A stretch of 64,000 bases of DNA from Primulina eburnea (lineage: Eukaryota; Streptophyta; Magnoliopsida; Lamiales; Gesneriaceae). The translations under genes were made by a program, and so were the position numbers. Below are positions 3,698-38,643 of this stretch, one piece after another. Each line of letters starts with the position of its first letter. Positions within the stretch are counted from its first letter, which is position 1. The notes under the pieces are model-generated. The model searched no databases. It worked only from the letters and a program-made list of their open reading frames with translations, and was not told the DNA's origin. The stretch spans positions 62,001 through 126,000 of the forward strand of contig NW_027331417.1 in the NCBI RefSeq assembly GCF_022965805.1. The letters run 5' to 3'.

Positions 3698-4265
3698 CAT
3701 TAATCCACCATGAATGTTTTCTTTGAGAATTCTCATAAATAAGAATTGTATCCCATGCCATGATATAATCATGATAATTAAACATATTTGGCATTGCCTG
3801 AAAAGTGTTTAATTGTCTGGCTTGTCCGAGAGGTAAACCCCAATTAGCCGCTGGGATAATTTTCTTTATAATCATTTTAGAGAATGCAAAATCGCGATTG
3901 CGATCCATATGTTGGATTTCAACTGAGCCAGTTTCGACTAGAATAGTTTCAAAATAATCACGAGTTTTTCTTCCCAATATGGGTTGTAAATCTTTAATTA
4001 AATAGCTTTGAGCTATATGAATTGGAGATAGACCTTTTAGATCTTTGTCAACAGGACAGCAATGAAGACATCCTGAAATTAGATAAGGATATTTTAATTC
4101 CTCTTTTGATCCCTTTAAGGCAAATATAGCATTATTATAATAATGAATGTCATATGCAGTTGGATCATCTGCGAATTCTTTAATGGGATCAAATTTCTCT
4201 TCATCTGTAGTAGCCATATTAGGCTGCTGAACATTAGCACCTCTTTTAAAAGGTGGCTTATTCAT
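3698..4265 (-). pseudogene. EPRV ORF2, N-terminal part (segment ii)
   Basis: Second viral ORF, function unknown. It starts with the ATG at 4265-4263 and overlaps the ORF1 stop by 8 nt (ATGAATAA). It is cysteine- and aromatic-containing, with no motif I recognise. The reading matches segment iii through the NSQ..KHSWWI region; here that region is open (CAA AGA), whereas segment iii has a stop. Viral sequence ends at 3698 and the frame runs on into copia LTR to 3645, so the last 18 or so codons are not viral. Confidence 0.7.
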
Positions 4266-5742
4266 AGGCTTTTTTCCTGTTGCTGGTCTCTTTAGAACCG
4301 TTTTCCAAGGTTGCTCCCTGCAAAAATTCTCTAGTTAGAAAATCTGGTAAAGAATTCGATTTTCCAGAGATATGTTCAATATCAAAATCAAAACATGCTA
4401 ATATAGCTTGCCATCTAGCAAATATTTGTTTAGAAGATGCTATTACTTTAACATCTTTTAAAAGAATATCTTTAGCAGATTTGCAATCAACTCTTAATAA
4501 AAATTTCTTATTTAAAAGATCACTTTCAAATTTTGTAATACATTTAACAATTGAAAGAATTTCTTTCTTTATTGTAGAATAATTCTTTTGAGTATTATTC
4601 CAAGTACCAGAAGTATATCTCACAAGAATTTCTTTATATGTATTATCTAATTTTTGTTTAAGTATTCCTCCATATCCAATATCAGAGGCGTCTGTTTCAA
4701 CTATTTTGAATGCTTCTGGATTAGCAATAGATAAACAAGGGAGTTCTTTAACTCTTTCTTTTATTTTTTGTATTGCTAAAGTATGACTATCAGTCCATGG
4801 TTGAGGATTTTTCTTCAACCTTTGAAATAATAATTTACAATCTTGAGCGAGATCTTTATAAAAATCGCCTATATAATTAAGACTTCCAAGAAATCTTTGT
4901 AATTGATTTACATCAGTGATTTTATCAGGAAATTTTTCAGCAAAAACAATTGCTCTTTCAATAGGAATTATTATTCCATTTTCAATATAATGTCCTAAGA
5001 ATGTTATCTTAGTTTGAAAAAGTTTTACTTTTTTCTGATTTACTGCCAAACCAGCTTTTTTAGTAACTTGAATAAATATATTTAAATGTTTAAAATGCTG
5101 ATCAATATTATCAGAATATATAAGGACATCATCTATATAGACAATAATATAGTCTATATATGAATTATAAATTTCATTCATTATAGTTTGGAATTCCATT
5201 GGAGCATTTTTTAATCCAAATGGCATTACATTCCATTCATAATGGCCAAATGGTACAGTAAAAGCTGTTTTATATTTATCTTCTTCTTTTAGAAGAATTT
5301 GATAAAATCCCGATTTTAAATCAAAAGAAGAGAAAACTTTTCCTTTAAATAATCTACTTAGCAAATCTCTTTTATTTGGTAATGGATGCTTTATCCATTT
5401 TAATGCTTTATTAAGCGGTTTATAATTGATAACAAGTCTTGGAGCTCCTCTTTCAATTTCGGCTGCATTTTCAACATAGAAAGCTGGACAACTCCAAGGA
5501 CTATTACTTGGTCTGATTAACTCTTTTTTAAGAAGACTATCAATTTCTTCTTTGCAATAATTTAAAAGTCTAGGCCCCATAGCTATAGGCCTTGCTTTTG
5601 TAGGAATTTTATCCTCATTAAAATCATCTGTATAAGGAAGACTGACCTGATGTTTTTTCCTATTCCAAAAGGCATTAGGAACATCAGCACATATCTCTTT
5701 GGATATATTTTCAGAAATAATTTTTATTTTTTCTTGAATTTT
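4258..5742 (-). pseudogene. EPRV reverse transcriptase-RNase H part of ORF1 (segment ii)
   Basis: C-terminal part of the viral polyprotein, which copies pregenomic RNA into DNA. RT motifs are visible: LKSGFYQI, FGLKNAP, and YIDD at about 5125-5135 (minus). RNase H follows, with ETDASDIGYGG and VDCKSAKDIL. An ATG at 5580 gives a 440-codon open stretch, but the frame is the same as that of the protease part upstream. The separation is a single nonsense codon at 5743, so the ATG at 5580 is an internal methionine, not a natural start. The stop overlaps the start of ORF2. Confidence 0.85.
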
Positions 5743-6843
5743 TTAAAAATTTAATTTTTCTTTAATATTTTTAAAATGAATTTCATCTTTTAATGAACTA
5801 ATAAAATTTTCTTTATTACACACTATTTTTTGTAAAATATTAATAGATTTTGAAACTGGTATTGTTGTGAATGGAAAAAATAAATCATTACCTTTAATGT
5901 TGGTATATAAACCCTTTTCATTAATTTTATTAATAGGAAACAACATTTGAAAAAATGGAGTTCCTAAAATCACAGGAGTAGATATATTTTTAATGAGAAT
6001 AAAAGTTGTATTTAAACAAACTCCAGAATTACATATTGCCACATCAGACAATTTGTAATTAACTATAAGAGGTTGCTTATTAGCAGCTGTTATAAATTGA
6101 GTAGTCTTTTTATAATATTTGGAAGGAACAATTCCTTCACTGATACAATTTACATCAGCTCCCGTATCTAATAATGCTTCAATAGTAATTTTAAATTTTT
6201 TATTAATAATTAATGTTACTTTTGAGTACCATTTTTGGGAAATAATCTGATCAATTTTATTGATCCATACCATTTGATTTATTTCATGATCATTATCATT
6301 TTTTGGTAAAATATCTTCTTCTTCATCAGAAGTCGAATCTTTTTCCCAAGTGTTATTATTGATACTAAGAATATTTACTCTTTCTTTTAAATATTTTATT
6401 TCAGATTTTATCTGATCTATTTCTCCTTTTAATTCAGAAATAGTAGGCTCTCTTTCTTTTTGTTTAGCCTTTTCTAATATTTTATTGTAAGAATATAATT
6501 CATGTTCTTGTACTGTATTTTGTACAAGTTTAGTAGGCTTATGATTTGCCATATTTAAATAATGTTCTATAGCTTTTCTTTTTTCTATAGGATCTTTAAT
6601 TTGATCTATGAGATCTAAAATGAAAGTTTCTTCATTTGATATAACATTTATTTCTAATTCCATAAAATTTATGAGACAGGTGTCACAATCACAATTTGGA
6701 TCACATATTTTATTTTCTGTTATTTCATTATCAGAATCATTATCTGAACTGCTATTAGAATATTCTGATAATTCATCAATAATATTAATATAGAAATCTT
6801 TTTGTTTTGAATCTTCTTCTTTATTTAGAAGAATGTTTATCAA
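5743..6843 (-). pseudogene. EPRV capsid C-terminus and aspartic protease (segment ii)
   Basis: It contains the acidic, serine-rich tail (SEYSNSSSDNDSDNE), a CDPNCDCDTC cysteine cluster, a lysine/glutamate helical stretch and the retropepsin motif LLDTGADVNCIS with the downstream ILGTPF. The protease would cleave the polyprotein. It ends at a TAA created by G-to-T at 5743-5745, relative to segments iii and v where the codon is GAA. The upstream frame is lost through single-base deletions between 6843 and 7160. Confidence 0.85.
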
Positions 6844-7093
6844 TGATTCTTTTAAATCATTGTTTATATTGAGATTATTAATCTTTTTCTTAACATAACA
6901 CTTATTAGCTTTATGTCCAATTTTTCCACATTTCCAGCATACTGGAACTTTAGAATCATTTTTTATAGGTTTTTTAAACCTTTTCTTAGAATATTTTTAG
7001 ATTTTTCTTTATCTTTTAAGTAATGTTTCTTTCTTTTAAAAGGAAATCGTTTCTTTTTCTTATCCCTTTTAGGATATTGTATTGGTTGAAAGC

Positions 7094-8809
7094 CTATTTG
7101 CTCTCAAAAATCACCAATAATATTTCTATTTTCTTCTTTTTGCATATCAAGTTGTCTTTTAACTTGATATCATTACAAAGATTAATTCCTTCTGCAGTTA
7201 TTTCTGCAGATAAATCTCCATAAGTAAGAATATTCCAATCTATAGAATTTGTTGGAGATTTAGATTTTAATCTATTTTTTACTCTTTCTGCAAAAAGTAC
7301 CGGAAGTCCGGATATAAATTTTTCTTTCCAGAAATTTGCATTGCAATCATTTCTGGTTAAGACTTTGGTCATAAAAACATCTTTATACCATCTGAATTCA
7401 GATAATGTTGGGCATCTCAGATTCATTAATTGTTCTTGAGATCTATCTAATTGGAGTTCATTTGCTCCAATAAAATTAGATAAAATTGTATAAATAAGTG
7501 TATTTACAGCATCTGACTCTTCTCGTCCATTAAGATCAACTATAGAAGAGTTTAGAATTTTATTCTTTGCTTCTTTAGAAAGATAAAAATCCCACCAAAC
7601 TTGAAGTTGGCCTGTGAAACCAGTAATAATGGCTTGAGCAATTTGCCTATCATTATTACCTTTTATCTTTGCTGCAGAAGAATATATTAACATTTGTTTA
7701 ATAATAGTTTTAATCTGATATTCAGATTTTCCATCTATATTCCATTCAGTAATAGCTTCTCCATTAAACTGAACATAATCTTTTTTCTCTTCAATTTGAA
7801 GATCAACAGGTGTTGCCTTTTTATAAAAAGGTTTTACAATTGATACTTTATGCATTTTATTAATCTGCATTTCATCTTCTGACGAACTAGAAATATTATC
7901 TAGTTGTTCAGATTTCTTAATTACTGAAATAGAACCTTTTTCTTTAATATTGATTTTTTGTAATCGATCTATTAGACCTTCCATAAAATCATCATCCTTT
8001 TTAGAACTTAAAAGAAAATTTTCTTTTTTAAGATTAGGAGGAGGTTTTATCATCAAAGTTTTTGAACTTTCCCCACTAGAAATTCCTGGTTTAGACTTTG
8101 ATAAAATTTCTTCAATTCTAGTAGTCTGATTTCTTATAGAATGTAAAGTAAGATTGGTAAAATTATTCTGTTGAATAATATGGTCAAAATTACCATGCCC
8201 TATTTCTGATTTTATAGGGGTAGCATAAATTTCTTTATTAGTATATCTCACAAGAATTTCTTTAGATGTATTATCTAATTTTTGTTTAAGTATTCCTCCA
8301 TATCCAATATCAGAGGCGTCTGTTTCAACTATTTTGAATGCTTCTGGATTAGCAATAGATAAACAAGGGAGTTCTTTAAATCTTTCTTTTATTTTTTGTA
8401 TTGCTAAAGTATGACTATCAGTCCATGGTTGAGGATTTTTCTTCAACCTTTGAAATAATAATTTACAATCTTGAGCGAGATCTTTATAAAAATCGCCTAT
8501 ATAATTAAGACTTCCAAGAAATCTTTGTAATTGATTTACATCAGTGATTTTATCAGGAAATTTTTCAGCAAAAACAATTGCTCTTTCAATAGGAATTATT
8601 ATTCCATTTTCAATATAATGTCCTAAGAATTTTATCTTAGTTTGAAAAAGTTTTACTTTTTTCTGATTTACTGCCAAACCAGCTTTTTTAGTAACTTGAA
8701 TAAATATATTTAAATGTTTAAAATGCTGATCAATATTATCAGAATATATAAGGACATCATCTATATAGACAATAATATAGTCTATATATGAATTATAAAT
8801 TTCATTCAT
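7094..8809 (-). pseudogene. chimeric EPRV ORF: RT/RNase H fragment joined in frame to movement-capsid region
   Basis: 571 open codons crossing the segment i/ii junction at 8241/8242. The first part (8809 to 8242) is RT from MNEIYNSYIDY through YIDD to the start of RNase H (ETDASDIGYGG). It then switches without a frame change to the region between movement protein and capsid (NKEIYATPIKSE), followed by the capsid core (ITGFTGQLQVWWDF; other copies have GWW). A single T missing in the run near 7155 shifts the frame, so the last residues and the stop at 7094 are out of frame; the zinc knuckle (CWKCGKIGHK, about 6910-6950) lies beyond another 1-nt deletion near 6996. Expression is unproven. Confidence 0.8.
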
Positions 8810-8814
8810 TATAG

Positions 8815-8986
8815 AAATTCTTCAGAAATTAATAAAAGTTATTCTTCTATTACGATCTTATTCTTTTATTCTGTAAGGAAGAAGGTAGTTATACCCAGGA
8901 GAAATCCGTAAGTCGGGTTCCATAAGGCCTGTAAAGCCAAAAGGTAAGGCAGGGTAAAGCCTTGACAGTATCTACCATATTCTTGA
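8815..8986 (+). other. EPRV segment between primer site and ORF1 (segment iii start)
   Basis: Matches 36748-36919 of segment v, which lies between the viral PBS and ORF1. It contains no ORF. Segment iii starts here, 28 nt downstream of where the PBS would begin; the PBS itself is missing. The junction with the inverted RT fragment (8813/8815) shares the bases AG with both parents. Confidence 0.8.
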
Positions 8987-11939
8987 ATGCATAAATTAAT
9001 ACGATCTTTTACGAAGAATAAATCTTCAAATAGTAATACTAAGAACAAAGAATTAATTATTTCTGAAAATTTCGAGAAAAATATTCAAAACTGGAAAATA
9101 CCAGCATCTTCTAATATGAAGATCTATAGATCTAATGGATTTAATTTTAAATCCGACTATATTATTAAAACAATTGAAGAAGCGATTCCTTTAAAAGGAG
9201 GATACGACTCATTTAGTTTATTATCTCAAAAACTTGTTAATATTCACAAGCAAAATTACAAATTTATGCATTTGGGAATGATACAAGTAGGTTTAAAACC
9301 TCTTACCAGATTAGGCCTAAATACTTCAGCTTTAATTTTGGTAAGAGACCAAAGGCATAATAAATTCGAGGATTCCTTATTAGGAATAGTAGAGTCCTCA
9401 TTATGTGAAGGACCAATACATTTTAGTTGTTTTCCTAATTTTCCAATTTCTCTTTCTGATCCAAATATCATGAAACCCCTCACCTTAAATATAAAAACTG
9501 AAGGTTTTGATATGATAGATGGAACAGAAAATGTTGTTCTATTATATAGAATTTGTTACAAGGTCATGAATTCAACGATATCTAATTTTAGAATCAATAC
9601 TAATCAAATTAGTTCAAAAAGAGGAGAAACTACTCTTTTCATAACTGATATTACTAAAAGCAATATTATGATTCCTAAAACAATTAATTGGAGTCAAGTT
9701 ACTTTGCCAAAAATCTGGAAAATGGAAAGTATAGCCCCTTCTCTAAAAGAAGAATCTAGAAAACTGGAAAGTATAGTTCAATATGTTGATGGAGATGTTG
9801 AAATAAAATTCTCATCTCAAAGACATCTACGAATTAAACTTCCTGAAGAAAGTAGAAATTCTACTTCTTCTATATCTGATTTTGAAAAAATTAGTATATC
9901 TGGTCTTCAAAAGACTAATGATAATGTATCTCATCCAGAATATAAAGTAGATATTCCCGAATCTAGTACTTCTCGATTTCAACGAAGTTATTCTGTTAAT
10001 AATAGAAAATCAGATTCCCCTACTTTTTCTGATATGGGATATAATGTTATGGTTATTAATAATAACTCTATTCAAAAAAGTTTAGATAAGATTAAAAATA
10101 TTAATACGAAAAAATGGTTTTTAAGTTGTTTAAATTCTAGACAACAAACATTATATGTTTCAAGATATTTAGAATGGATTGAAGAAACTAAATTAAATTT
10201 AGATTTTTTCAAATGGATGGAAAATTTATATTTTCCAGGAAGAAATAAAATATTTCCAAATTTTAAAGATGAGTTTTTTATAAATACTCTTGAATCAACA
10301 TATAAATTATATGTTCATGAAACTGGAGAAGAATCTTTTGAGATCCATCCTCCTTTTACTACTTTACAAATTAAAAAAGGTAATAAAGAAATTTATGCTA
10401 CCCCTATAAAATCAGAAATAGGGCATGGTAATTTTGACCATATTATTCAACAGAATAATTTTACCAATCTTACTTTACATTCTATAAGAAATCAGACTAC
10501 TAGAATTGAAGAAATTTTATCAAAGTCTAAACCAGGAATTTCTAGTGGGGAAAGTTCAAAAACTTTGATGATAAAACCTCCTCCTAATCTTAAAAAAGAA
10601 AATTTTCTTTTAAGTTCTAAAAAGGATGATGATTTTATGGAAGGTCTAATAGATCGATTACAAAAAATCAATATTAAAGAAAAAGGTTCTATTTCAGTAA
10701 TTAACAAATCTGAACAACTAGATAATATTTCTAGTTCGTCAGAAGATGAAATGCAGATTAATAAAATGCATAAAGTATCAATTGTAAAACCTTTTTATAA
10801 AAAGGCAACACCTGTTGATCTTCAAATTGAAGAGAAAAAAGATTATGTTCAGTTTAATGGAGAAGCTATTACTGAATGGAATATAGATGGAAAATCTGAA
10901 TATCAGATTAAAACTATTATTAAACAAATGTTAATATATTCTTCTGCAGCAAAGATAAAAGGTAATAATGATAGGCAAATTGCTCAAGCCATTATTACTG
11001 GTTTCACAGGCCAACTTCAAGGTTGGTGGGATTTTTATCTTTCTAAAGAAGCAAAGAATAAAATTCTAAACTCTTCTATAGTTGATCTTAATGGACGAGA
11101 AGAGTCAGATGCTGTAAATACACTTATTTATACAATTTTATCTAATTTTATTGGATCAAATGAACTCCAATTAGATAGATCTCAAGAACAATTAATGAAT
11201 CTGAGATGCCCAACATTATCTGAATTCAGATGGTATAAAGATGTTTTTATGACCAAAGTCTTAACCAGAAATGATTGCAATGCAAATTTCTGGAAAGAAA
11301 AATTTATATCCGGACTTCCGGTACTTTTTGCAGAAAGAGTAAAAAATAGATTAAAATCTAAATCTCCAACAAATTCTATAGATGAGAATATTCTTACTTA
11401 TGGAGATTTATCTGCAGAAATAACTGCAGAAGGAATTAATCTTTGTAATGATATCAAGTTAAAAAGACAACTTGATATGCAAAAAGAAGAAAATAGAAAT
11501 ATTATTGGTGATTTTTGTGAGCAAATAGGCTTTCAACCAATACAATATCCTAAAAGGGATAAGAAAAAGAAACGATTTCCTTTTAAAAGAAAGAAACATT
11601 ACTTAAAAGATAAAGAAAAATCTAAAAGATGTTCTAAGAAAAGGTTTAAAAAACCTATAAAAAATGATTCTAAAGTTCCAGTATGCTGGAAATGTGGAAA
11701 AATTGGACATAAAGCTAATAAGTGTTATGTTAAGAAAAAGATTAATAATCTCAATATAAACAATGATTTAAAAGAATCATTGATAAACATTCTTCTAAAT
11801 AAAGAAGAAGATTCAAAACAAAAAGATTTCTATATTAATATTATTGATGAATTATCAGAATATTCTAATAGCAGTTCAGATAATGATTCTGATAATGAAA
11901 TAACAGAAAATAAAATATGTGATCCAAATTGTGATTGTG
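8987..11939 (+). pseudogene. EPRV ORF1 N-terminal half: movement protein, capsid, zinc knuckle (segment iii)
   Basis: 984 viral codons in one uninterrupted frame, then cut by element B. Residues about 40-260 resemble a 30K-superfamily movement protein (LGMIQVGLKPLTRLG, LVRDQRHN, FPNFPISLSDPN), which would open plasmodesmata. A serine-rich linker follows, then a capsid core near residues 600-830 (ITGFTGQLQGWWDFYL) and a CCHC knuckle (C900, C903, H908, C913). The tail is acidic. The codon after the initiator methionine differs from segment v (His instead of Asp). The ORF continues in B's LTR to 11965, but those last codons are not viral. The coding path resumes at 29850. Confidence 0.9.
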
Positions 11940-14060
11940 TGTGGTGCCCCGGGTCCGATATCTAATACTAATAATTTTAGATGTATCAAACCCAACGATT
12001 TAATAAATACATAATTTCTTGTTCACAAACTGACATAAACATCGTCAGTATAATTTAAATGTCTCAATTATTTGAAATAAAATTTTCAACATGCCAAAAT
12101 AAAGTAGTAAACAAAGAAATCAAACATCATCACATAGCTCCTAAGACCCGAGAATCCCACTCTAACTCATATCTCCTCGCCTGGAGCTGGACTCTGGCAT
12201 CCCAAGCCTCGCCTCACCTACCATCAAGCACATGAAAACAAGAGGTAGCCGACATGCCGGTGAGTATAAACCCAGTATGATACAATCAATAACATATGAG
12301 AATTAAAATTTCAGATATCTCATATACAATTCATAAAGATGCAATATAATGCAATGCATGATCAGAAGCTGTGGGCTATAAATAAATCTCAAGATCAAGT
12401 GAATCATCTGGTCATCGGGTACCCAAGGGAATAGAATCACCCAACAACATCCACCGACTCATCCGCTCGAGGTGGTGTGTTGTGTTCTACAATCCCAAGA
12501 CTATGGTGCGCCTATAGAGAGTGTTCAGGCCATAGCAGCGACCTCCGCATACACTATGCCAACTCAACTATAGCTCCATACGTCCAATAAATCAATATAT
12601 CAAGGCGACCTCCGCCATATCAAATATGAATCGACAAGTGGCTCAATATGCAATGTAATGATGCAAATCAATATCATCATCTCGATATCATAATAAACTC
12701 ATCTCAAGGCCACAATCATCATCAAATCACAAGTAATTCATCGAACCATAGAATTTTAAATATTAAAATAAAAATGATACTTTTACCTCGTATGTTACCG
12801 ACCGTAACATACCTTTCAAATATTACCAAAAGAAGACCAAAATGCGTATGTGAGAAGTCTTGAACCTTTGAATTCTACTATAACTCAAGGACTTTGATCA
12901 TCTATCAAAATAGAGTAATTTCTGTTCAAAATTCATAATCAATCCAATACGGCTTCAAATCAAGATCCACAGATTTCTTAATCATAATATTCCATAAAAA
13001 CATTCATTGGATCATTTTGTCAAACACTTTGCGTGCCTGCTAAAGAGTTAGCTCCTCTTCAATTCTATTTTAAATTCAACCCAACACAATCACAACATCT
13101 CCAACATCTCTATATCTCAAATATCAATTCAATTATCAATTCTAAACTTCAACCCATTTCCAAACTTTAACAAAAATCGGAAAAACTTACATCCTTGTGA
13201 AGCCCGTGATGAGAGGATCACAAATCTAACTTCATTTCATATTTTCCTTGAACAAATCTCCCATGGATTGAAGAAATTAGAAGATGAAAGGAAAAATAAA
13301 GAACCCTAGCTTCCTTGCTCTGAAGAAACCGAGAGGATGGGAAAGAAATGAGATAAAAATGAAGTCTCCACTTATTTTATACCTTAAAACACCAAAAACA
13401 CGACTTTACTATTCACAGACCGCGGGTGCGCTAGCCTAAGCACCGCGGGTGCGGTGTGCCTTCGTCAAATCATCCAAAATTTTGATAATCAAGACCGCGG
13501 GTGCGGCAGAGTAAGGACCGCGGGTGCGCTCTCCACTCTGCGCACAGCTTCTCCAAAGATCGCTTCAGCAAAGCCTCTTCCGGTCAGAATTGGGAAAAGT
13601 GGTAAACTACAAAGTTGTAGCCCTATGTCTTGGCTTTCATCTCCCAAAATTTCAGCTCATTTGGATGTCCGAGTAAAAAGTTATGCCAATTCTCCCAACA
13701 TGTGTCATTGTAGGAACGACGATACGCACGACACACTTCGGGGCGCTTTTGGCTCGTCTTCCCTAATGATTTGAACAAAACTCAAAACTGGAAAGTTATA
13801 GCCTTATGTCTTATCTTTCTAATGGAAAAGGCCTCACATCAATTGGATGAATATACAAAACATTATGCTAAAAACCACAACTTGTGCCATATTTTTCATA
13901 CCGTTTCTGCACATCCATTACCTATTTAGCTCAAATTCCACGTTTGATTCTACTCATCCATTATCTATTTCATTCTATAACATCATTACCATTCATATCA
14001 TAATGTAAATCCAAGAACCATCACACTACTGCTATATTATATCAAAATTCGGGCATTACA
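11940..14060 (-). repeat. 3' LTR of element B
   Basis: Minus sense: starts TGTAATGCCCG (14060) and ends CGGGGCACCACA (11940). It differs from the other B LTR at scattered positions, including TGTGGTGCC here versus TGTGGGGCC there. It holds a box array, a TATA box and a shared ACTCACCGG module (about 12250-12280). Short open frames within it recur in both LTRs only because the LTRs are copies. Confidence 0.95.
13371..13528 (-). promoter_or_regulatory. LTR promoter of B: four paired CGCACCCGCGGT boxes plus TATA
   Basis: On the plus strand ACCGCGGGTGCG occurs at 13419, 13442, 13494 and 13517 (starts), so the spacings are 23, 52 and 23 bp. In the element's sense they lie upstream of TATAAAATAAG (13381-13371). 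The same four boxes sit in the other LTR at 29203-29312. Promoter role is inferred from position; the box pairing is seen directly. Confidence 0.6.
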
Positions 14061-14174: not shown

Positions 14175-14363
14175 ATAACTGTAAGGCTCGAAGATTTAGT
14201 TATCATAATCAGATGGATTCGTTGATAATTAAGATGATTGTAGATGTATTTTATTGGACTAGAAAAGAAAGGAAAATGTACAATAAAGATGTGAAAGATA
14301 GTCAAAAGAATAAACAAAGTCGAAGTTAATGCGCACATATGTATGGAAATTCCAGTAGACTCG

Positions 14364-14639
14364 GCGCACATGCGCGAAGATATGCGCGCACATGCGCGAG
14401 CAGGCCAGCAGCCTCGGCGCATATGCGCGAGAGTAGTGGCGCATATGTGCGGAGCGTCCAGCAACATTGGCGCATATGCGCGAGTTTAGTGGCGCATATG
14501 CGCGAGTGTGAAATTCTGCCAACTTGTCGAGACAGTAGGTCTCGCGCACATGCGCGAGTAATGCCGCGCATATGCGCGAGACGTGTACTTCAAAGGATTT
14601 GCCATGTGTGTGTTGGCATGCAAGGTATATATATATAAG
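14364..14639 (+). promoter_or_regulatory. LTR promoter of A: eight GCGCAYATGCGC boxes in four pairs, plus TATA
   Basis: Near-perfect 12-bp palindromes start at 14364, 14386, 14417, 14439, 14470, 14492, 14544 and 14566. Within-pair spacing is always 22 bp; gaps between pairs are 31, 31 and 52 bp. Each contains an E-box core (CACATG or CATATG). GGCATGC and TATATATATATAAG (14626-14639) follow 49 bp downstream. Regulation by a dimeric, possibly bHLH-type factor is inference; the periodic layout is directly visible. Confidence 0.65.
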
Positions 14640-15776
14640 TTGGCCTTTCTTTGCCATTTCATCAGAAGAGACCACCGAGAAAGCTTAGGAGAAAGGGTAA
14701 GGTGATTTCATTCTAGAATCAAGATTGTGTCACTTTTATACATCCAAACTAAAATCTAAATATAGATTTGGACTCCTCTCATCAAAGGCTACAAGGTGAT
14801 GTAAATATTGTTTACTTTCAACATAATTTGAGATATTGTTGTTGGAAGAATTAAGATTTGAACTCTAGGATATGTTCTTGTGAGTATGAAGATAATATAT
14901 TCGTAACCGGATCAAAGGACGGATGTCATATGCAATTATTACGATTTTATAGCATGTTTAGAACTAAATATGCAGATTTTGGATACTAGGGCATGTTTAG
15001 GATGATGATTATGAGTTGATGAGTTTAGATTGATAATGTGTTGATATGTGTTGAGAATTTGATTGACCGGTATCGAGGAATTACATCGTTATGCCGTCAA
15101 ATTGTACCGAGATCATGTATAGAATTAGATATGGGTTGATTAGGTTAGAGATTAATAGAATATGTATTCCCATTTGTATTTCAGATCGGATAGTGACAGA
15201 TTCGTCTTCGAGACTTCAACAATTGTGCGACGAAAGGTATAGTACATGTTTTGTTTGGGGAATCACGACTCAAATGAGATCACATTTGAGTTTCCCAACC
15301 AAAATCACATACTTGTTTTATTGTTCATACCTTGATATGATTATGATTGTTATAGATTTGTTTATAGAATTTGTATGCAGATCTTGCTATGCTTTGTTTA
15401 CAGATCGTGTAGCATTGCATTATGCTTGTTTACAGATTTTGTATTCATGCATTAAGATAGGGCAGTCTGGAGATCAGGCAGACTACTAGATGTTCGGCGA
15501 TATCTCAGCTTAGGGGAAGATAACCGCCCCTATTGTAGACGCGGATACAGATCAGGCCGAAGTCTAGGAATAAGACGTACAGCACCTCGATTGGTAGGGT
15601 AGGTGACAGCCAGTGACGTCTTATTCACAACGGGATCCCTAGAGTTCTAGTCGAGTCGCATCTAGACATGATTAGACTCGCATTGCATGATTATATATGC
15701 TTGTCATTCATATTAGCATGTTGCATGTTTTAGATTGTTTTACTGCATGTATACATGTTTATACTGAGATTTGTTC

Positions 15777-15825
15777 TCACCGGTTTTCCGGCTGTTGTTA
15801 TGTCTGTATGTGTGCATAACAACAG
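15777..15825 (+). other. conserved LTR double hairpin in A
   Basis: CACCGG-TTTT-CCGG is followed by an exact 11-bp stem CTGTTGTTATG/CATAACAACAG (15792-15802 and 15815-15825) around a 12-base loop TCTGTATGTGTG. The counterpart in the 3' LTR is at 22611-22644. The loop recurs in the other LTR families while the stem varies with compensation. Confidence 0.7.
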
Positions 15826-16118
15826 GTGGGGCAGGATCTGGGTCGAGACAGAGATGATCGTGTTAGCGTGGAGATCACGGGCATAGCAGATGGACCAGTA
15901 GTTGTCTTTTATTATGTACTGTCTTTTATTACTGGTTAGTTGAGAACATACAGAATAAGACATGTATTGTATGTTGTATGTTGTAAATTAAATAAAGAAT
16001 GTATGCTTTTTTGGTTACATGTGTTTTTATGTAAAAAGCGAAAATTTGACCCATGTTTTATAATAACGATCCATTTAATCCCAAGAAAAAGAATTAGAGC
16101 CCGGGTCCCCACAACAAG

Positions 16119-16130: not shown

Positions 16131-16363
16131 AGAGAGTTCCTTTAGACTGAGATAGGATAGAATGAGCGGGGTAGATCGAGTCTTCTTCCTTGCTTGATGA
16201 CGTGCTAGCATGATTATTGCTTTCCTATTACATGTTGTTGTTATTTGATTTCTTTCAGCATGTGATTGACTGAATCAGAACTGATTCTAGATCAGAGGTA
16301 ACTGACTAGAGGATGGCTGAGACAGTTGTATATCTTGTATACTAATCACTTGGGTTATTAGAT

Positions 16364-19027
16364 ATGCCTCCTAGAAGAGCAGCCGTACCTCTACGACCAG
16401 CAGCGCCAGAACAGGGGAGCACATCCGGAGATCCTATGGATGTTACAGCGACCCCTATGGAGACGTTGCTGAAGCGATTCCAATCCTTTCGACCTCCCGC
16501 ATTAAAAGGTACCGAGAATGCCATCGAGTGCGAAAGTTGGCTTGAGGACATTGAAATGCTATTTGACTCTTTGGAGTATAGTGATGAGAAGAGAATAAAG
16601 CTAATTGGCCATCAATTGCAAGATATAGCCAAGAATTGGTGGTTGAACATTAAGAGAGCTTTAGAGCAGCGGGGTACCGAGATTACTTGGAAGGGATTCA
16701 AGACGGAGTTCTATTTAAGGTTCTTTCCCATCTCCTACCGTAAAGACAAAGGTGCTGAATTTGCCAATCTGAGGCAAGGGCAATTAAACATTGAGGAGTA
16801 CGTTGCCAAATTTTCCTCTCTGCTTCGTTTTGCACCCCATGTTTCAGGAAATGATGAGGCCATGGCAGATCAGTTTATAAATGGCCTGAATCCAGATATC
16901 TTTACGTTGGTCAATACTGGGAGACCCGATAATTTCTCGGATGCATTGAATCGTGCCAAAGGAGCTGAAGCAGGATTGCTTAGGCAACGGAGTGCTCCGT
17001 ATGTTGCACCGAGTCCGAGACCGCCACCACCTCCATCCCAAGTTCCTCCTCCTCGATTCGAAAGCGGTGGTAGTAGTAGTGGACGCAAAGAACAGCTGAA
17101 GGCGAAGGGGAAACAGTTTAAGCGACCTGGGAGCAGTTCGTCCAGCTCCAGCGGATCAAGACAGATGGGTTTTGATCAAAGTTCAAGGACTTCAGGTGTT
17201 TACTGTAATTCTTGTGGAGGTAGGCATGCGACTGAACAGTGCCAAGGAGTTACAGGCCGATGCAACATTTGTAGGCAACCGGGGCATTTTGCCAAAGTCT
17301 GTCCCCAGAGGAGTGTACAGCAAGGCCAGAGTGGAAGAGCATCTGGTTCCATACCTCAATTTGAGCGACAGGCATCATCGGTCCACTCTTTTCAGCCTCC
17401 ACCAGCACCGACTCCACCCAGAGCTCTAGGTAGTCAGACGGTGAGTCAACCTCCGAGGCAACAGGCCCAAGTGTTTGCATTGACCGAAGAGCAAGCACAA
17501 GATGCACCAGATGATGTTATAGCCGGTAACTGCTCTCTTTATGGTTATCCTGCTTATATCTTGATAGATACAGGTGCATCGCATACATTCATTTCAGAGC
17601 GATTTGCATTGTTGCATTCTTTGCCTGTTGAGTCTTTGCTAGATGTTGTGTCTATTAATTCCCCGTTGGGAAGCGGATTGATATCTGTAACTACGGTTAG
17701 ACATTGCATTCTACAGTTTGAAGGGCATGAGATTGACCTAGATTGTATAGTGTTGGGTCTAGCTGATTTTGACTGTATAGTTGGTATTGACATGCTAACA
17801 AAGTATAGAGCTACCGTGGATTGTTTCCACAAGATTGTCAGATTCAGACCCGAGATGACAGACGAATGGAAATTCTACGGGAAGGGTTCCAGATCTCGGA
17901 TTCCCTTGATTTCGGCTCTTACTATGAACAGATTGTTACAGAAAGGAGCAGATGGTTTCTTTATTTATGCTGTAGATATGCAGAAGTCGAGCCCGGCGTT
18001 GGCAGATATACCAGTAGTGCGGGAATTTCCAGATATTTTTCCAGATGAGATCCCAGGATTACCTCCGGTTCGTGAGGTAGACTTCAGTATTGATCTTACA
18101 CCAGGTACCGTCCCTATTTCGAGAGCTCCGTATAGGATGGCACCCATCGAACTAAAAGAACTGAAAGCACAGTTAGAAGATCTTCTGGCCAAGGGATATA
18201 TCAGACCTAGTGTATCTCCTTGGGGCGCTCCGGTGCTGTTCGTGCGAAAGAAAGATGGTTCGATGCGATTGTGTATAGACTACCGGCAACTGAACAAGGC
18301 AACGATCAAGAATAAATATCCTTTGCCTAGGATTGATGATTTATTTGATCAGTTGCATGGATCCTCCGTGTATTCGAAGATTGATTTGCGTTCTGGATAT
18401 CATCAGCTTAGAGTTCGAGATATAGACATACCGAAGACAGCATTTCGAACCAGGTATGGACATTACGAATTTATTGTCATGCCTTTTGGTTTAACAAATG
18501 CTCCTGCGGTATTTATGGGCTTGATGAACCAAGTGTTTCAGAGGTATTTAGATGAATTTGTCATTGTTTTCATCGATGATATTTTTGTGTATTCGAAGAA
18601 CAGAAATGAGCATGCAGAGCATCTCAGAATTGTTTTGCAGACGTTGAGAAACGAACGACTGTATGCTAAATTGTCAAAGTGTGAGTTTTGGTTGAATCGA
18701 GTTGTATTCTTGGGGCATATCATTTCTGGAGATGGTATTTCTGTTGACCCGAGTAAGGTAGAAGCTGTGATCAGTTGTTCGAGACCGACTTCTGTACCAG
18801 AAATACGCAGTTTCATGGGCCTAGCCGGATACTATAGAAGATTTATCAAAGATTTCTCCAGCATTGCAAAGCCAATAACTCAATTGACGCAAAAGAATGC
18901 ACCATTTGTTTGGTCAGAGGAGTGCGAGTCTAGCTTTCTAGAGTTGAAGAAAAGGCTGACCAGTGCTCCAGTACTGACGATACCTTCAGGTACGGGTGAT
19001 TTCGTTGTGTATTGCGACGCCCCATAG
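16364..19027 (+). pseudogene. element A gag-pol, first part: gag, zinc knuckles, protease, RT
   Basis: 887 codons from ATG ([10 protein letters not shown]). Retrotransposon gag core at residues 40-200; proline-rich linker; two knuckles (C281, C284, H288, C293 and C300, C303, H308, C313); retropepsin DTGAS at D402; RT with [15 protein letters not shown] and FIDD; then the start of RNase H. The frame ends at TAG 19025-19027, immediately after the first RNase H motif (YCDA), because one base is missing there compared with elements C and D. The open frame is therefore truncated, not a natural gag-RT protein. Confidence 0.92.
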
Positions 19028-20897
19028 AGGTTTGGGATGTGTTCTTATGTAGCGAGGCCATGTGATCGCATACGCCTCGAGACAATTGAAGCCACATGAA
19101 GTCCGATACCCCATTCATGATCTGGAATTGGCGGCTATCGTATTTGCGTTAAAGATTTGGCGTCATAATCTCTACGGCGAAAAATTTGAAATCTTTTCCG
19201 ATCACAAGAGCCTAAAGTATCTATTCTCTCAATCAGAACTGAACATGAGGCAGCGTAGATGGCTTGATCTTTTGAAAGACTTTGACTGTGAAATCAAATA
19301 TTATCCAGGGAAGTCAAATGCAGCAGCAGATGCCTTGAGTCGTAAGGTATGTTCTTTGTCCTTATCGACGATAGGTGTTAACAAGTTAGTTGAAAATTGC
19401 TGTACATCTGGATTAGAATTTGAGGCAGATAGTAAGCCACTACGACTTTTTACGATCCAAGTTGAGCCCAATTTGATTATGAGGATCAAGAAAGCACAAA
19501 GAACTGATCAGAATGTGCAAAGATCAATCCAAATGGTCAGATCAGGGCATGTATCAGAATATCAGGTACGAGATCATGTGTTGTACGTGAATAACCGTCT
19601 AGTTGTGCCAGATGTTGCAGATTTGAGACAGCAGATTCTGACAGAGGCACATTGTAGTCGGTTCAGCATTCATCCGGGTGGCAGAAAGATGTACAATGAC
19701 TTGAAGACACAGTTCTGGTGGAAGCAAATGAAGTCAGACATTGCCGAATTTGTGTCTAAGTGTTTGAACTGCCAACAGGTGAAAGCTGAGAGGAAGAAGC
19801 CTGGTGGATTACTTCAAAGTTTAGCCATTCCAGAATGGAAATGGGATCACATTTCCATGGATTTTGTGACGAAGTTACCACGATCATCCAGAGGCTGCGA
19901 TGCGATTTGGGTTATTATTGACAGATTGACCAAATCTGCTTGTTTCATCCCATACAGAATGACATATAGACAGGATCAGATGGCGGAGATTTATATTCGT
20001 GAGATAGTCAGATTGCATGGAGTGCCGAAGTCTATCGTATCAGATCGTGATCCACGATTCACTTCACACTTCTGGCACAGTCTACAGCAGGCCTTAGGTA
20101 CGACATTACACCTGAGTACTGCTTACCATCCTCAGACAGACGGACAGTCAGAGCGGACTATCCAGACTTTAGAGGATATGTTGAGAGCCGTCGTGCTAGA
20201 TTTTGGCATTGGTTGGCAAGATTCCCTACCTCTTTGCGAATTCTCTTACAATAATAGCTATCAGACGAGTATTGAGATGGCACCGTTTGAAGCTTTGTAT
20301 GGCAAGAAGTGCAGATCTCCGCTATACTGGGATGACGTTTCAGAGGTACCAGAACTTGGGCCAGATATGATTCGTGACATGACAGAGAAGGTGAAACTCA
20401 TTCAGAAGAGGATGAAGACAGCACAAGATCGACAAGCAAAGTATGCCAATATCAGACGTAGACCGTTAGTATTCGAGGCGGGAGATAGAGTATTCTTAAA
20501 GATTTCTCCATTCAGAGGCGTTGTTCGATTTGGCAAACGCGGGAAACTATCTCCTCGATACATTGGTCCTTACGAGATTCTTGAGAAGATTGGCGATCGA
20601 GCTTATCAACTTGCACTTCCTCCTTCTCTATCCGGGATACATGATGTCTTTCATGTATCGATGTTGCGTAAGTATATGCCCGATATTTCTCATGTCATTC
20701 AGCCTGACGAAGCTAAGCTTGATCAGACCTTGAGCTATGTGGAACAACCGATACAGATTCTTGATCGGAAAGAAAAGAAGCTCAGAACGAAGAATATTCC
20801 ACTCGTGAAAGTTCAGTGGAGTCGTCATGGCATTGAGGAAGCGACATGGGAGACAGAAGCCAACATGCGACAGAAACACCCCGAATTATTTCAATAA
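19028..20897 (+). pseudogene. element A pol, second part: RNase H and integrase
   Basis: Continues in the +1-shifted frame. An extra in-frame TAG at 19050-19052 replaces a glutamine codon that C and D keep, so even readthrough of the frameshift would stop. From 19062 it is open for 611 codons: RNase H ([23 protein letters not shown]), integrase zinc domain (H..H..CLNCQQ), catalytic D/D/E region (MDFVTKL, SDRDPRF, GQSERTI), GPYE motif and the C-terminal VKVQW..EEATWE segment. It ends at TAA before the PPT. Confidence 0.9.
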
Positions 20898-20960: not shown

Positions 20961-20998
20961 GATTTCGAGGGCGAAATCATTTCTTAGAGGGGGAGAAA
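20961..20998 (+). other. pre-PPT hairpin and polypurine tract of element A
   Basis: GATTTCGAGGGCGAAATC at 20961-20978, then TTAGAGGGGGAGAAA directly abutting the 3' LTR at 20999. Confidence 0.85.
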
Positions 20999-22932
20999 TG
21001 TAAGGCTCGAAGATTTAGTTATCATAATCAGATGGATTCGTTGATAATTAAGATGATTGTAGATGTATTTTATTGGACTAGAAAAGAAAGGAAAATGTAC
21101 AATAAAGATGTGAAAGATAGTCAAAAGAATAAATAAAGTCAAAGTTAATGCGCACATATGTATGGAAATTCCAGTAGACTCGGCGCACATGCGCGAAGAG
21201 ATGCGCGCACATGCGCGAGCAGGCCAGCAGCCTTGGCGCATATGCGCGAGAGTAGTGGCGCATATGCGCGGAGCGTCCAGCAACATTGGCGCATATGCGC
21301 GAGTTTAGTGGCGCATATGCGTGAGTGTGAAATTCTGCCAACTTGTCGAGACAGTAGGTCTCGCGCACATGCGCGAGTAATGCCGCGCATATGCGCGAGA
21401 CGTGTACTTCAAAGGATTTGCCATGTGTGTGTAGGCATGCAAGGTATATATATATAAGTTGGCCTTTCTTTGCCATTTCATCAGAAGAGACCACCGAGAA
21501 AGCTTAGGAGAAAGGGTAAGGTGATTTCATTCTAGAATCAAGATTGTGTCACTTTTATACATCCAAACTAAAATCTAAATATAGATTTGGACTCCTCTCA
21601 TCAAAGGCTACAAGGTGATGTAAATATTGTTTACTTTCAACATGATTTGAGATATTGTTGTTGGAAGAATTAAGATTTGAACTCTAGGATATGTTCTTGT
21701 GAGTATGAAGATAATAGATTCGTAACCGGATCAAAGGACGGATGTCATATGCAATTATTACGATTTTATAGCATGTTTAGAACTAAATATGCAGATTTTG
21801 GATACTAGGGCATGTTTAGGATGATGATTATGAGTTGATGAGTTTAGATTGATAATGTGTTGATATGTGTTGAGAATTTGATTGACCGGTATCGAGGAAT
21901 TACATCGTTATGCCGTCAAATTGTACCGAGATCATGTATAGAATTAGATATGGGTTGATTAGGTTAGAGATTAATAGAATATGTATTCCCATTTGTATTT
22001 CAGATCGGATAGTGACAGATTCGTCTTCGAGACTTCAACAATTGTGCGACGAAAGGTATAGTACATGTTTTGTTTGGGGAATCACGACTCAAATGAGATC
22101 ACATTTGAGTTTCCCAACCAAAATCACATACTTGTTTTATTGTTCATACCTTGATATGATTATGATTGTTATAGATTTGTTTATAGAATTTGTATGCAGA
22201 TCTTGCTATGCTTTGTTTACAGATCGTGTAGCATTGCATTATGCTTGTTTACAGATTTTGTATTCATGCATTAAGATAGGGCAGTCTGGAGATCAGGCAG
22301 ACTACTAGATGTTCGGCGATATCTCAGCTTAGGGGAAGATCACCGCCCCTATTGTAGACGCGGATACAGATCAGGCCGAATTCTAGGAATAAGACGTACA
22401 GCACCTCGATTGGTAGGGTAGGTGACAGCCAGTGACGTCTTATTCACAACGGGATCCCTAGAGTTCTAGTCGAGTCGCATCTAGACATGATTAGACTCGC
22501 ATTGCATGATTATATATGCATGTCATTCATATTAGCATGTTGCATGTTTTAGATTGTTTTACTGCATGTATACATGTTTATACTGGGATTTGTTCTCACC
22601 GGTTTTCCGGCTGTTGTTATGTCTGTATGTGTGCATAACAACAGGTGGGGCAGGATCTGGGTCGAGACAGAGATGATCGTGTTAGCGTGGAGATCACGGG
22701 CATAGCAGATGGACCAGTAGTTGTCTTTTATTATGTACTGTCTTTTATTACTGGTTAGTTGAGAACATACAGAATAAGACATGTATTGTATGTTGTATGT
22801 TGTAAATTAAATAAAGAATGTATGCTTGTTTGGTTACAGGTGTTTTTATGTAAAAAGCGAAAATTTGACCCATGTTTTATAATAACGATCCATTTAATCC
22901 CAAGAAAAAGAATTAGAGCCCGGGTCCCCACA
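20999..22932 (+). repeat. 3' LTR of element A
   Basis: Same length as the 5' LTR. The box array is at 21183-21396, with one box altered (GCGCATATGCGT at 21311) and one that is degenerate in the 5' LTR intact here. The TATA box is at 21445. It ends at 22932, followed by the ATAAC duplication and element B's integrase. Confidence 0.95.
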
Positions 22933-22937
22933 ATAAC

Positions 22938-27724: not shown

Positions 27725-29844
27725 TGTGGGGCCCCGGGTCCGATATCTAATACTAATAATTTTAGATGTATCAAACCCAACGATTTAATAAATACATAAT
27801 TTCTTGTTCACAAACTGACATAAACATCGTCAGTATAATTTAAATGTCTCAATTATTTGAAATAAAATTTTCAAATGACAACATAAAGTAGTGAACCAAG
27901 AAATCAAACATCATCACATAGCTCCTAAGACCCGAGAATCCCACTCTAACTCATATCTCCTCGCCTGGAGCTGGACTCTGGCATCCCAAGCCTCGCCTCA
28001 CCTACCATCAAGCACATGAAAACAAGAGGTAGCCGACATGCCGGTGAGTATAAACCCAGTATGATACAATCAATAACATATGAGAATTAAAATTTCAGAT
28101 ATCTCATATACAATTCATAAAGATGCAATATAATGCAATGCATGATCAGAAGCTGTGGGCTATCAATAAATCTCAAGATCAAGTGAATCATCTGGTCATC
28201 GGGTACCCAAGGGAATAGAATCACCCAACAACATCCACCGACTCATCCGCTCGAGGTGGTGTGTTGTGTTCTACAATCCCAAGACTATGGTGCGCCTATA
28301 GAGAGTGTTCAGGCCATAGCAGCGACCTCCGCATACACTATGCCAACTCAACTATAGCCCCATACGTCCAATAAATCAATATATCAAGGCGACCTCCGCC
28401 ATATCAAATATGAATCGACAAGTGGCTCAATATGCAATGTAATGATGCAAATCAATATCATCATCTCGATATCATAATAAACTCATCTCAAGGCCACAAT
28501 CATCATCAAATCACAAGTAATTCATCGAACCATAGAATTTTAAATATTAAAATAAAAATGATACTTTTACCTCGTATGTTACCGACCGTAACATACCTTT
28601 CAAATATTACCAAAAGAAGACCAAAATGCGTATCTGAGAAGTCTTGAACCTTTGAATTCTACTATAACTCAAGGACTTTGATCATCTATCAAAATAGAGT
28701 AATTTATGTTCAAAATTCATAATCAATCCAATACGGCTTCAAATCAAGATCCACAGATTTCTTAATCATAATATTCCATAAAAACATTCATTGGATCATT
28801 TTGTCAAACACTTGGCGTGCCTGCTAAAGAGTTAGCTCCTCTTCAATTCTATTTTAAATTCAACCCAACACAATCACAACATCTCCAACATCTCTATATC
28901 TCAAATATCAATTCAATTATCAATTCTAAACTTCAACCCATTTCCAAACTTTAACAAAAATCGGAAAAACTTACATCCTTGTGAAGCCCGTGATGAGAGG
29001 ATCACAAATCTAACTTCATTTCATATTTTCCTTGAACAAATCTCCCATGGATTGAAGAAATTAGAAGATGAAAGGAAAAATAAAGAACCCTAGCTTCCTT
29101 GCTCTGAAGAAACCGAGAGGATGGGAAAGAAATGAGATAAAAATGAAGTCTCCACTTATTTTATACCTTAAAACACCAAAAACACGACTTTACTATTCAC
29201 AGACCGCGGGTGCGCTAGCCTATGCACCGCGGGTGCGGTGTGCCTTCGTCAAATCATCCAAAATTTTGATAATCAAGACCGCGGGTGCGGCAGAGTAAGG
29301 ACCGCGGGTGCGCTCTCCACTCTGCGCACAGCTTCTCCAAAGATTGCTTCAGCAACGCCTCTTCCGGTCAGAATTAGGAAAAGTGGTAAACTACAAAGTT
29401 GTAGCTCTATGTCTTGGCTTTCATCTCCCAAAATTTCAGCTCATTTGGATGTCCGAGTAAAAAGTTATGCCAATTCTCCCAACATGTGTCATTATAGGAA
29501 CGACGATACGCACGACACACTTCGGGGCGCTTTTGGCTCGTCTTCCCTAATGATTTGAACAAAACTCAAAACTGAAAAGTTATAGCCTTATATCTTATCT
29601 TTCTAATGGAAAAGGCCTCACATCAATTGGATCAATATACAAAACATTATGCTTAAAACCACAACTTGTGCCATATTTTTCATTCCGTTTCTGCACATCC
29701 ATTACCTATTTAGCTCAAATTCCACGTTTGATTCTACCCATCCATTATCTATTTCATTCTATAACATCATTACCATTCATATCATAATGTAAATCCAAGA
29801 ACCATCACACTACTGCTATATTATATCAAAATTCGGGCATTACA
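27725..29844 (-). repeat. 5' LTR of element B
   Basis: 2120 bp; on the plus strand from TGTGGGGCCCC to GGGCATTACA. The paired box array is at 29203-29312 and the TATA box just left of it, near 29156-29166. It is followed by the TTGTG duplication and by the resumption of EPRV ORF1 at 29850. Confidence 0.95.
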
Positions 29845-29849
29845 TTGTG

Positions 29850-30826
29850 ACACCTGTCTCATAAATTTTATGGGATTAGAAATAAATGTTATATCAAATG
29901 AAGAAACTTTCATTTTAGATCTCATAGATCAAATTAACGATCCTATAGAAAAAAGAAAAGCTATAGAACATTATTTAAATATGGCAAATCATAAGCCTAC
30001 TAAACTTGTACAAAATACAGTACAAGAACATGAATTATATTCTTACAATAAAATATTAGAAAAGGCTAAACAAAAAGAAAGAGAGCCTACTATTTCTGAA
30101 TTAAAAGGAGAAATAGATCAGATAAAATCTGAAATAAAATATTTAAAAGAAAGAGTAAATACTCTTAGTATCAATAATAACACTTGGGAAAAAGATTCGA
30201 CTTCTGATGAAGAAGAAGAAGATATTTTACCAAAAAATGATAATGATCATGAAATAAATCAAATGGTATGGATCAATAAAATTGATCAGATTATTTCCCA
30301 AAAATGGTACTCAAAAGTAACATTAATTATTAATAAAAAATTTAAAATTACTATTGAAGCATTATTAGATACGGGAGCTGATGTAAATTGTATCAGTGAA
30401 GGAATTGTTCCTTCCAAATATTATAAAAAGACTACTCAATTTATAACAGCTGCTAATAAGCAACCTCTTATAGTTAATTACAAATTGTCTGATGTGACAA
30501 TATGTAATTCTGGAGTTTGTTTAAATACAACTTTTATTCTCATTAAAAATATATCTACTCCTGTGATTTTAGGAACTCCATTTTTCCAAATGTTGTTTCC
30601 TATTAATAAAATTAATGAAAAGGGTTTATATACCAACATTAAAGGTAATGATTTATTTTTTCCATTCACAACAATATCAGTTTCAAAATCTATTAATATT
30701 TTACAAAAAATAGTGTGTAATAAAGAAAATTTTATTACTTCATTAAAAGATGAAATTCATTTTAAAAATATTAAAGAAAAATTAAATTTTGAAAAAATTC
30801 AAGAAAAAATAAAAATTATTTCTTAA
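29850..30826 (+). pseudogene. EPRV ORF1 middle part: capsid tail and protease (segment iii)
   Basis: Continues the frame broken by B at 11939. It holds the CDTC motif, an alpha-helical lysine/glutamate-rich region and the retropepsin site LLDTGADVNCIS with ILGTPF. It stops at TAA 30824-30826, where segment v has GAA. The methionine at 29870 is internal, not a start. Confidence 0.88.
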
Positions 30827-32274: not shown

Positions 32275-33232
32275 GCCACCTTTTAAAAGAGGTGCTAATG
32301 TTCAGCAGCCTAATATGGCTACTACAGATGAAGAGAAATTTGATCCCATTAAAGAATTCGCAGATGATCCAACTGCATATGACATTCATTATTATAATAA
32401 TGCTATATTTGCCTTAAAGGGATCAAAAGAGGAATTAAAATATCCTTATCTAATTTCAGGATGTCTTCATTGCTGTCCTGTTGACAAAGATCTAAAAGGT
32501 CTATCTCCAATTCATATAGCTCAAAGCTATTTAATTAAAGATTTACAACCCATATTGGGAAGAAAAACTCGTGATTATTTTGAAACTATTCTAGTCGAAA
32601 CTGGCTCAGTTGAAATCCAACATATGGATCGCAATCGCGATTTTGCATTCTCTAAAATGATTATAAAGAAAATTATCCCAGCGGCTAATTGGGGTTTACC
32701 TCTCGGACAAGCCAGACAATTAAACACTTTTCAGGCAATGCCAAATATGTTTAATTATCATGATTATATCATGGCATGGGATACAATTCTTATTTATGAG
32801 AATTCTCAATGAAAACATTCATGGTGGATTAAATTCCAATTAGATGATATTCATCAATTTATCCCTACCTGGTTCAAAACTTTTTTCTTCTCATGGGGGG
32901 TAATGCCCTCTATTTTCCCTAGAAATGTTAAAAACATATGGATTAAGTTTCAGCAAGCCAATCCACAATTCGACGGAATGACCGCAATAATTCAATTCTC
33001 CATTAATTATAATGTTCCCTGGATTATAAGATGGGAGTATGGATTACAGGATTTGCCAAAAGAAAAATTTGAAATCAAATTTGCCCCTACTATTTTGATC
33101 AGAAAAATATTAATAAAATGGTGGGGAAAAGAAGACTTCTTTGGAGAAGGTAAAGCTTATGATCGACAAGGGGTAATAGCTCTTGGACCTGCCAGAGAAA
33201 CACCGAAAAACAACTACTCTCTTTCTGAATAA
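32267..33232 (+). pseudogene. EPRV ORF2 with internal stop and 3' deletion (segment iii)
   Basis: Starts MNKPPFKRGANVQ. A TGA at 32810-32812 interrupts it, and the same frame continues (WIRWEYGLQDLPKE, WWGKEDFFGEGKAYD) to GPARET. There about 476 bp present in segment v (35815-36290) are missing, so the reading runs into viral promoter-region sequence and stops at 33232. Function unknown. By adding segments, the undeleted ORF2 would be roughly 400 codons. Confidence 0.8.
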
Positions 33233-33306
33233 AAGGTTTAATTTTCGAAGATTTCTCTCAAACTTTGCTTTTTCAAACTTCTGCAAGATTATGTAAGTTT
33301 TAGTTT

Positions 33307-33546: not shown

Positions 33547-33561
33547 AGTCGAAGATTTGAA

Positions 33562-33620: not shown

Positions 33621-33625
33621 TGTGT

Positions 33626-36637: not shown

Positions 36638-36652
36638 AGTCGAAGATTTGAA

Positions 36653-38638: not shown

Positions 38639-38643
38639 ACAGG

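Follow-up and report, generated by a model that had tools for sequence, protein, structure and literature searches.

The window, by which we mean the whole 64-kb stretch of DNA analysed here, was resolved by self-comparison and Pfam searches into a nest of plant LTR retrotransposons with AT-rich endogenous caulimovirid pieces between them. Self-comparison delimited four elements (A-D) and a single LTR (E). Element A lies on the plus strand with LTRs at about 14177-16114 (5′) and 20996-22933 (3′), ends approximate, that are 99.2% identical; read from the letters, these LTRs span about 14180-16113 and about 20999-22932. Its gag-protease-RT-RNaseH-integrase reading frames (two frames) occupy 16346-20897 and end in a weak C-terminal chromodomain match. 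Element B is found on the minus strand (LTRs at 27725-29844 (5′) and 11940-14060 (3′), 98.9% identical), and element C on the plus strand (LTRs at 39815-41159 (5′) and 45809-47153 (3′), 99.9% identical), where a second copy of it begins at 57882. Element D, also on the plus strand, has LTRs at 37292-38639 (5′) and 50824-52246 (3′), and LTR E stands at 53344-55301 on the minus strand with no pol frame seen beside it. Pfam identified gag, protease, RT, RNase H and integrase in A, B, C and D, with RT preceding integrase, which is the gypsy order, and the four elements are plant Ty3/gypsy LTR retrotransposons. They are probably chromoviruses. The scan for a chromodomain covered the tails of A, B and C, and since the matches at the C-terminal end (E 4e-05, 0.0023 and 0.0054, respectively) are weak, each lying under the Pfam curated cut-off, we regard this status as probable only. 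The LTR termini and the primer binding site, tggtatcagagc, point, as we suspect, to the Tekay/Del lineage.

Element C was probably active recently, because its two copies (39815-45932 and 57882-64000) share 99.7% identity across 6.1 kb, and a frame of 1479 amino acids is uninterrupted in both. In a search with the RT region of C, which concerned the protein only, without LTR context, the best 120 of 7951 scored candidates bear plant names. In viral_contigs, from which the window's own genome was possibly excluded, the exact two-box patterns of A and C described below had no matching stretch, and the pol proteins of D and C gave 5 pattern matches each, with no relative confirmed. The caulimovirid pieces (3700-11939, 29844-37294 and 52246-57882; mostly 25-31% GC) encode a movement protein, a coat-protein domain, RT-RNase H and a protease. 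Several of them are inverted and about 99% alike, and they are broken up by the retrotransposons and LTR E. A fragment at 27-418 resembles the 3′ part of the A, D and E LTRs by self-comparison (75-85%), and a weak copia-type gag match at 316-1686 (E 9.6e-05, under the curated cut-off) adjoins it. Rfam gave no match at gathering score in the 64-kb window.

Arrays of palindromic CG-rich boxes lie upstream of the TATA box in all ten LTRs measured (two each of A, B and D, three of C and one of E), which is where a first-pass annotation of this DNA had placed them. In the 5′ LTR of A, eight boxes GCGC-AYAT-GCGC (one with a mismatch) occupy 14364-14577 on the plus strand with gaps of 22-31-22-31-22-52-22 bp, followed by the TATA box at 14626-14637 with GCATGCA before it; the eight boxes of the 3′ LTR (21183-21396, plus strand) repeat these gaps, so that the annotated series is found in both. 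The same is true of the 23-52-23 series given for B, whose LTRs each have four boxes (C/G)CGC-ACCC-GCGG on the minus strand, at 29204-29313 (5′, TATA 29165) and at 13420-13529 (3′, TATA 13381). For D, the annotated 23-51-23 holds in the 3′ LTR, where four boxes, one of them CCGA-ACCC-GCGG, lie at 50959-51067 (TATA 51118), but not in the 5′ LTR, which has just one pair of CCGC-ACCC-GCGG boxes at 37427-37461 with a gap of 23 (TATA 37512; both on the plus strand). The eight boxes of LTR E, around (C/G)CGC-CCGA-GCG(C/G), are located at 54958-55168 on the minus strand (TATA 54908). Their gaps, 22-49-22-43-22-19-22, are the earlier 21-20-21-44-21-50-21 read in reverse and off by 1 through centring. 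In the 5′ LTR of C we found eight boxes of the type TTCGGA-TCG-TCCGAA with pairs at 19-20 bp (39891-40136, plus strand, TATA 40144) and two further degenerate boxes with 4 mismatches of 15 at 39871-39885 and 39930-39944. The layout is the same in the 3′ LTR (45885-46130) and in the 5′ LTR of the second copy (57958-58203), both on the plus strand. With the two degenerate boxes counted, the gaps are 20-19-20-62-19-49-19-24-19 in all three C LTRs on which the spacing rests (the window also includes the start of a fourth), in line with the pairing at 19-20 bp first described.

A layout of two pairs separated by 49-52 bp occurs once each in A, B, D and E despite their differing spacers. The distance from the last box edge to TATA is 49 bp in A, 51 in D and 50 in E, as annotated (49-51 bp), 39 in B and 8 in C. 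Since D and E are homologous next to TATA and share a short stretch there with A, the constant 49-51 bp is not independent evidence. An unbiased 400-bp scan, set to report any dyad present at least three times, picked out A, C and the 3′ LTR of D and otherwise AT-rich dyads only; with this setting the arrays of B, E and the 5′ LTR of D escaped it. Among other promoter motifs, GCATGC is found directly 5′ of TATA in A, D and E (14600-14640, 37490-37520 and 54905-54925), extended in A and D to GCATGCA, which we take to be an RY-like motif. G(A/C)AATT(G/C)TGCC occurs above TATA in D and E and inside the array in A and D. On the 3′ side of the promoter, a 68-bp repeat with inverted ATATCGA/TCGATAT arms is present in about two copies in D (37994-38125 and 51600-51731) and is repeated in E (53866-54028).

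The boxes are of two dyad types. A, B, D and E fit one half-site pair, CGC-N4-GCG, which occurs 36 times in the 64 kb, 34 times within the seven arrays of these families. It is matched by 7 of 8 boxes in the A 5′ LTR and by 8 of 8 in the A 3′ LTR, by 4 of 4 in each B LTR, by 2 of 2 in the D 5′ LTR, 3 of 4 in the D 3′ LTR and 6 of 8 in E. Dinucleotide shuffles of the seven arrays had means of 0.14-1.12 matches, and of 1000 shuffles 10 reached the observed count for the D 5′ LTR, 1 did for the D 3′ LTR and none for the five others; motif and array bounds were picked after the arrays had been seen, so these counts describe a concentration and do not amount to a blind test. N4 was the sole spacer length, of 0-12 tested, that is abundant in each of A, B, D and E. 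CGC-N6-GCG has 25 of its 28 occurrences in arrays, 21 of those 25 in A and none in B, and CGC-N8-GCG and CGC-N10-GCG are mainly found in A. The second dyad, CGG-N5-CCG, is that of C, with 29 of 33 occurrences in the C arrays. In a simulation with a post-hoc null, the probability of three random GC-rich dyads sharing three arm bases equidistant from the centre was 0.0009. Among A, B, D and E, spacer and outer bases change from family to family and mostly vary little inside any one of them, although B and D have the same box, CCGC-ACCC-GCGG, with the outer G in half of the B boxes. Box sequences had been said to differ between the families, which is correct for C against the others and for the spacers, but not for B and D or for the CGC-N4-GCG frame common to four of the five. 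The accompanying suggestion of different factors for different families is weakened, as a single class of factor would be enough for A, B, D and E. In E (54955-55175, minus strand), the arms within each pair are near reverse complements and the 4-bp centre keeps one orientation. The CACATG/CATATG centres of A raised an E-box (CANNTG) as a common principle, which we rejected because the boxes of B, D and E are without CANNTG. Searches of literature text with six box sequences gave matches in five papers, all of them unrelated by title.

The five families cannot be counted as independent cases, as the first-pass annotation had done. In best local alignments the pol proteins of A and D are 84.6% alike (519 aa), those of A and B 81.1% (355 aa) and those of B and D 80.4% (501 aa). 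C stands further away, at 69.4% with B, 67.2% with D and 52.6% with A, where the alignment is longer and takes in gag. The LTRs of D and E are homologous, and with the box shared by B and D this leaves fewer than five independent families. Because A, B, D and E are related, their CGC-N4-GCG may reflect common descent, and the features they share may simply have been inherited. Outside the boxes, A and D share sequence at a score reached by none of 300 shuffles, in a match that is out of register (the inter-pair linker of A against the TATA-proximal segment of D). A and E share a segment GCATGC...TATATATA (p 0.007), and B against D gave p 0.03 with a scoring that counted masked boxes as matches and 0.057 by a second scoring. 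Specifically, identity between the D and E LTRs is 78% in the opening 88 columns, 86% in 97 columns on the far side of TATA and 89-91% in most of what remains of the D LTR. Across the array itself (ACCC against CCGA boxes) they do not align, and the TATA-proximal sequence is alike again. Homology on either side of a non-homologous array suggests that the box type was exchanged within one promoter scaffold. B and D share their box, and other pairs are closer. Either A and E have departed from an ancestral ACCC box, or arrays moved between elements.

The arrays also differ between LTRs of one element. As a rule the two LTRs of an element are identical at insertion, and those of D (37292-37560 and 50824-51170) now differ in this region by exactly one 74-bp box-pair unit that ends in identical boxes, which is evidence of array turnover. 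Such turnover would also be expected if the arrays were a minisatellite by-product, in which one chance box pair was multiplied by slippage and neither boxes nor spacing were under selection. The 53-bp units in A and 19-bp units in C detected by Tandem Repeats Finder agree with this, and the relatedness of A, B, D and E means that the layout could be inherited. We nevertheless consider this explanation quite unlikely, as slippage leaves unexplained why CGC-N4-GCG recurs with three different spacers, why the two-pair layout with 49-52 bp recurs with different box types and why the arrays lie just above TATA in every LTR measured.

In A, the array has diverged faster between the two LTRs than the remainder (4 of 221 sites against 12 of 1717) and thus is not protected after insertion, a point against the enhancer reading given below. 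CpG transitions make up 3 of the 4 differences in the array and 1 of the 12 outside it, as methylated CpG would give. The GC content is 0.56-0.60 in four arrays. CpG observed/expected ratios, taken from one LTR per family (the one-pair 5′ LTR in the case of D), are 1.20-1.57 in the five arrays and 0.74-1.01 elsewhere in the LTR; the stretches of B and D are just 117-118 bp long. These data agree with methylation after insertion and leave room for a chromatin element, whose dense CpG dyads would attract or repel DNA methylation or place a nucleosome by the promoter, with no sequence-specific dimer involved; a centromeric gypsy LTR has been reported, in the available part of the source, to have a nucleosome-placing segment (PMC11302176). 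But CpG density alone does not call for dyads with a fixed spacer, the numbers are small, and the comparisons for B, C and D showed no CpG transition in the array. We regard a purely chromatin-based role as very unlikely.

The annotated proposal that paired sites lie on one face of the helix finds moderate support in A, B, D and E, and none at 10.5 bp in C. At 10.5-10.6 bp per turn the coherence of box centres (R) is 0.90-0.97 in A, 0.74-0.84 in B, 0.82-0.86 in D and 0.70-0.80 in E; the C boxes are not coherent at this period (0.34-0.40), whereas at 10.0 bp they reach 0.73-0.77. With each gap type taken once per family in A, B, D and E (11 gaps), the mean cosine at 10.5 bp is 0.60 (p 0.0026; p 0.007 with the period free from 10 to 11), and inter-pair gaps alone gave p 0.012. 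When A, B/D, E and C each contributed a single within-pair gap, p was 0.052, and the gaps of C gave p 0.073. When gaps common to A, B, D and E were counted once as inherited, p was 0.005-0.12, depending on the value representing the class, and the gaps agree just as well with a period of about 24.7 bp (mean cosine 0.63, compared with 0.60 at 10.5). For these two reasons we call the 10.5-bp helical phasing of A, B, D and E, in which C has no part, suggestive and not proved.

Taken together, the shared promoter architecture proposed earlier is supported, and at a probability of roughly 0.6 we favour the reading that the arrays are U3 enhancers of Ty3/gypsy elements, made up of rows of predicted sites for dimeric plant transcription factors, with pairs on about one face of the DNA and a box type that has been replaced. 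The location of the boxes above TATA, their dyad symmetry and repetition, and gaps close to whole turns all fit, which makes a dimer-site enhancer the most economical reading. In A, B, D and E the site would consist of two half-sites, CGC and GCG, around a 4-bp spacer. Sites would be paired at a distance of about two helical turns, and successive pairs would be separated by two to five turns, so that the dimers bound there could line up along roughly one face and together bring transcription to the TATA box, which lies some 50 bp further downstream (39 bp in B). C would use a Sirevirus-type dyad, CGG-N5-CCG, at 19-20 bp. The arrays may grow and shrink via box-to-box recombination or template switching, and the box type would be replaced within an otherwise homologous promoter. 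We know of no plant factor with an exact CGC-N4-GCG site.

The boxes might instead act in RNA. The genomic transcript carries U3 close to its 3′ end, and palindromes there could pair into hairpins that lead to small-RNA silencing or serve RNA packaging. Compared with dinucleotide shuffles, RNA folding of the arrays is strong (z -6.8 for A, -5.4 for E, -3.8 for D, -4.1 for C and -4.0 for B; one LTR per family), with 0 of 200 shuffles folding as well in each of the five, but this is expected of any palindrome array. A small-RNA excess at palindrome clusters has been described for maize Sireviruses (Bousios 2016, as cited in the accessible part of PMC10760457). In the E pairs, on the other hand, the centres of same orientation leave C-A mismatches in the box-to-box stem, which, on our reading of the pairs, are repaired on both sides in none of four pairs and on one side in two, and an RNA function needs neither a position just above TATA nor helical spacing. 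An action in RNA is an alternative to be taken seriously, given the strong folding, but unlikely in our view.

Under the preferred reading of the arrays as enhancers, a testable site is defined, namely CGC-N4-GCG in pairs two turns apart. D and E would then be natural sister promoters that differ in box type, with A further off, and studies could then address in practice which host factor drives transcription of these elements and whether they change host control by exchanging boxes. One could go further and propose a fixed scaffold with exchangeable sites in one plant gypsy clade, in which pair spacing, phase and TATA distance are kept, all boxes are replaced together and the CGG-type dyad has been adopted by copia and gypsy elements alike. 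We put this forward tentatively and hold it to be rather doubtful. If it were true, related retrotransposons could change to another host factor or evade silencing, and would not need to rebuild their promoter to do so.

Three described systems bear comparison with these arrays. The BII boxes of Tnt1 are simple tandem boxes, whereas those described here are pairs of dyads. Like our arrays they are repeated boxes in the U3 of a plant LTR retrotransposon, and in the accessible part of the source they are described as binding defence-induced factors (PMC3316501); Tnt1, a Ty1/copia element of tobacco, differs in superfamily and in sequence. For the wheat centromeric RLG_Quinta, the available text proposes that a promoter-side LTR segment was replaced while the rest of the LTR remained homologous, which resembles D and E, but what was swapped there is a nucleosome-placing sequence of 162 bp, also present in a copia element, and not a box array (PMC11302176).

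The closest likeness is to the Sireviruses, and the first-pass statement that no system of this kind had been described was wrong. According to the available part of Bousios et al. 2010 (PMC2829016), the LTRs of these Ty1/copia elements have, upstream of TATA, palindromic repeated motifs built on a CGG-CCG core; these form CpG islands and number at least eight per element in total, with 3-14 in the LTR in Table 3. In the literature searched (most subscription journals lay outside its scope) we found no description of such arrays in Ty3/gypsy. As far as that text goes, both systems have numerous palindromic boxes that contain CpG, are nearly identical to one another and lie a little upstream of TATA, and in both the box sequence varies between elements around a constant core (PMC2829016). 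Copy numbers upstream of TATA are Sirevirus-like in A, E and C (8-10 boxes), and the 2-4 boxes of B and D are at or under the low end of the range given (PMC2829016). They differ in that the elements here are Ty3/gypsy, with RT before integrase, and so fall outside the Ty1/copia Sireviruses; in that no arrays were seen near an env gene here; and in the pairing of boxes with near whole-turn gaps, the accessible text of PMC2829016 containing no statement on box spacing that we found. The CGG-CCG core is present in C and is not a recurring dyad of A, B, D or E. The arrays are best read as working like Sirevirus motifs; as A, B, D and E are without that core as a recurring dyad and none of the elements is Ty1/copia, we do not file them as such. 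One box in each of four C LTR starts contains CGGACCGTCCG, the HOPIE consensus of Table 3, and the remaining C boxes are about one base off it, to judge from the part of the source available (PMC2829016). Such Sirevirus-type boxes, one with the exact HOPIE consensus, in a gypsy element suggest that unrelated retrotransposons may use the same host factor. If our reading is true, the promoter design of the Sireviruses extends to the other large superfamily of plant LTR retrotransposons.
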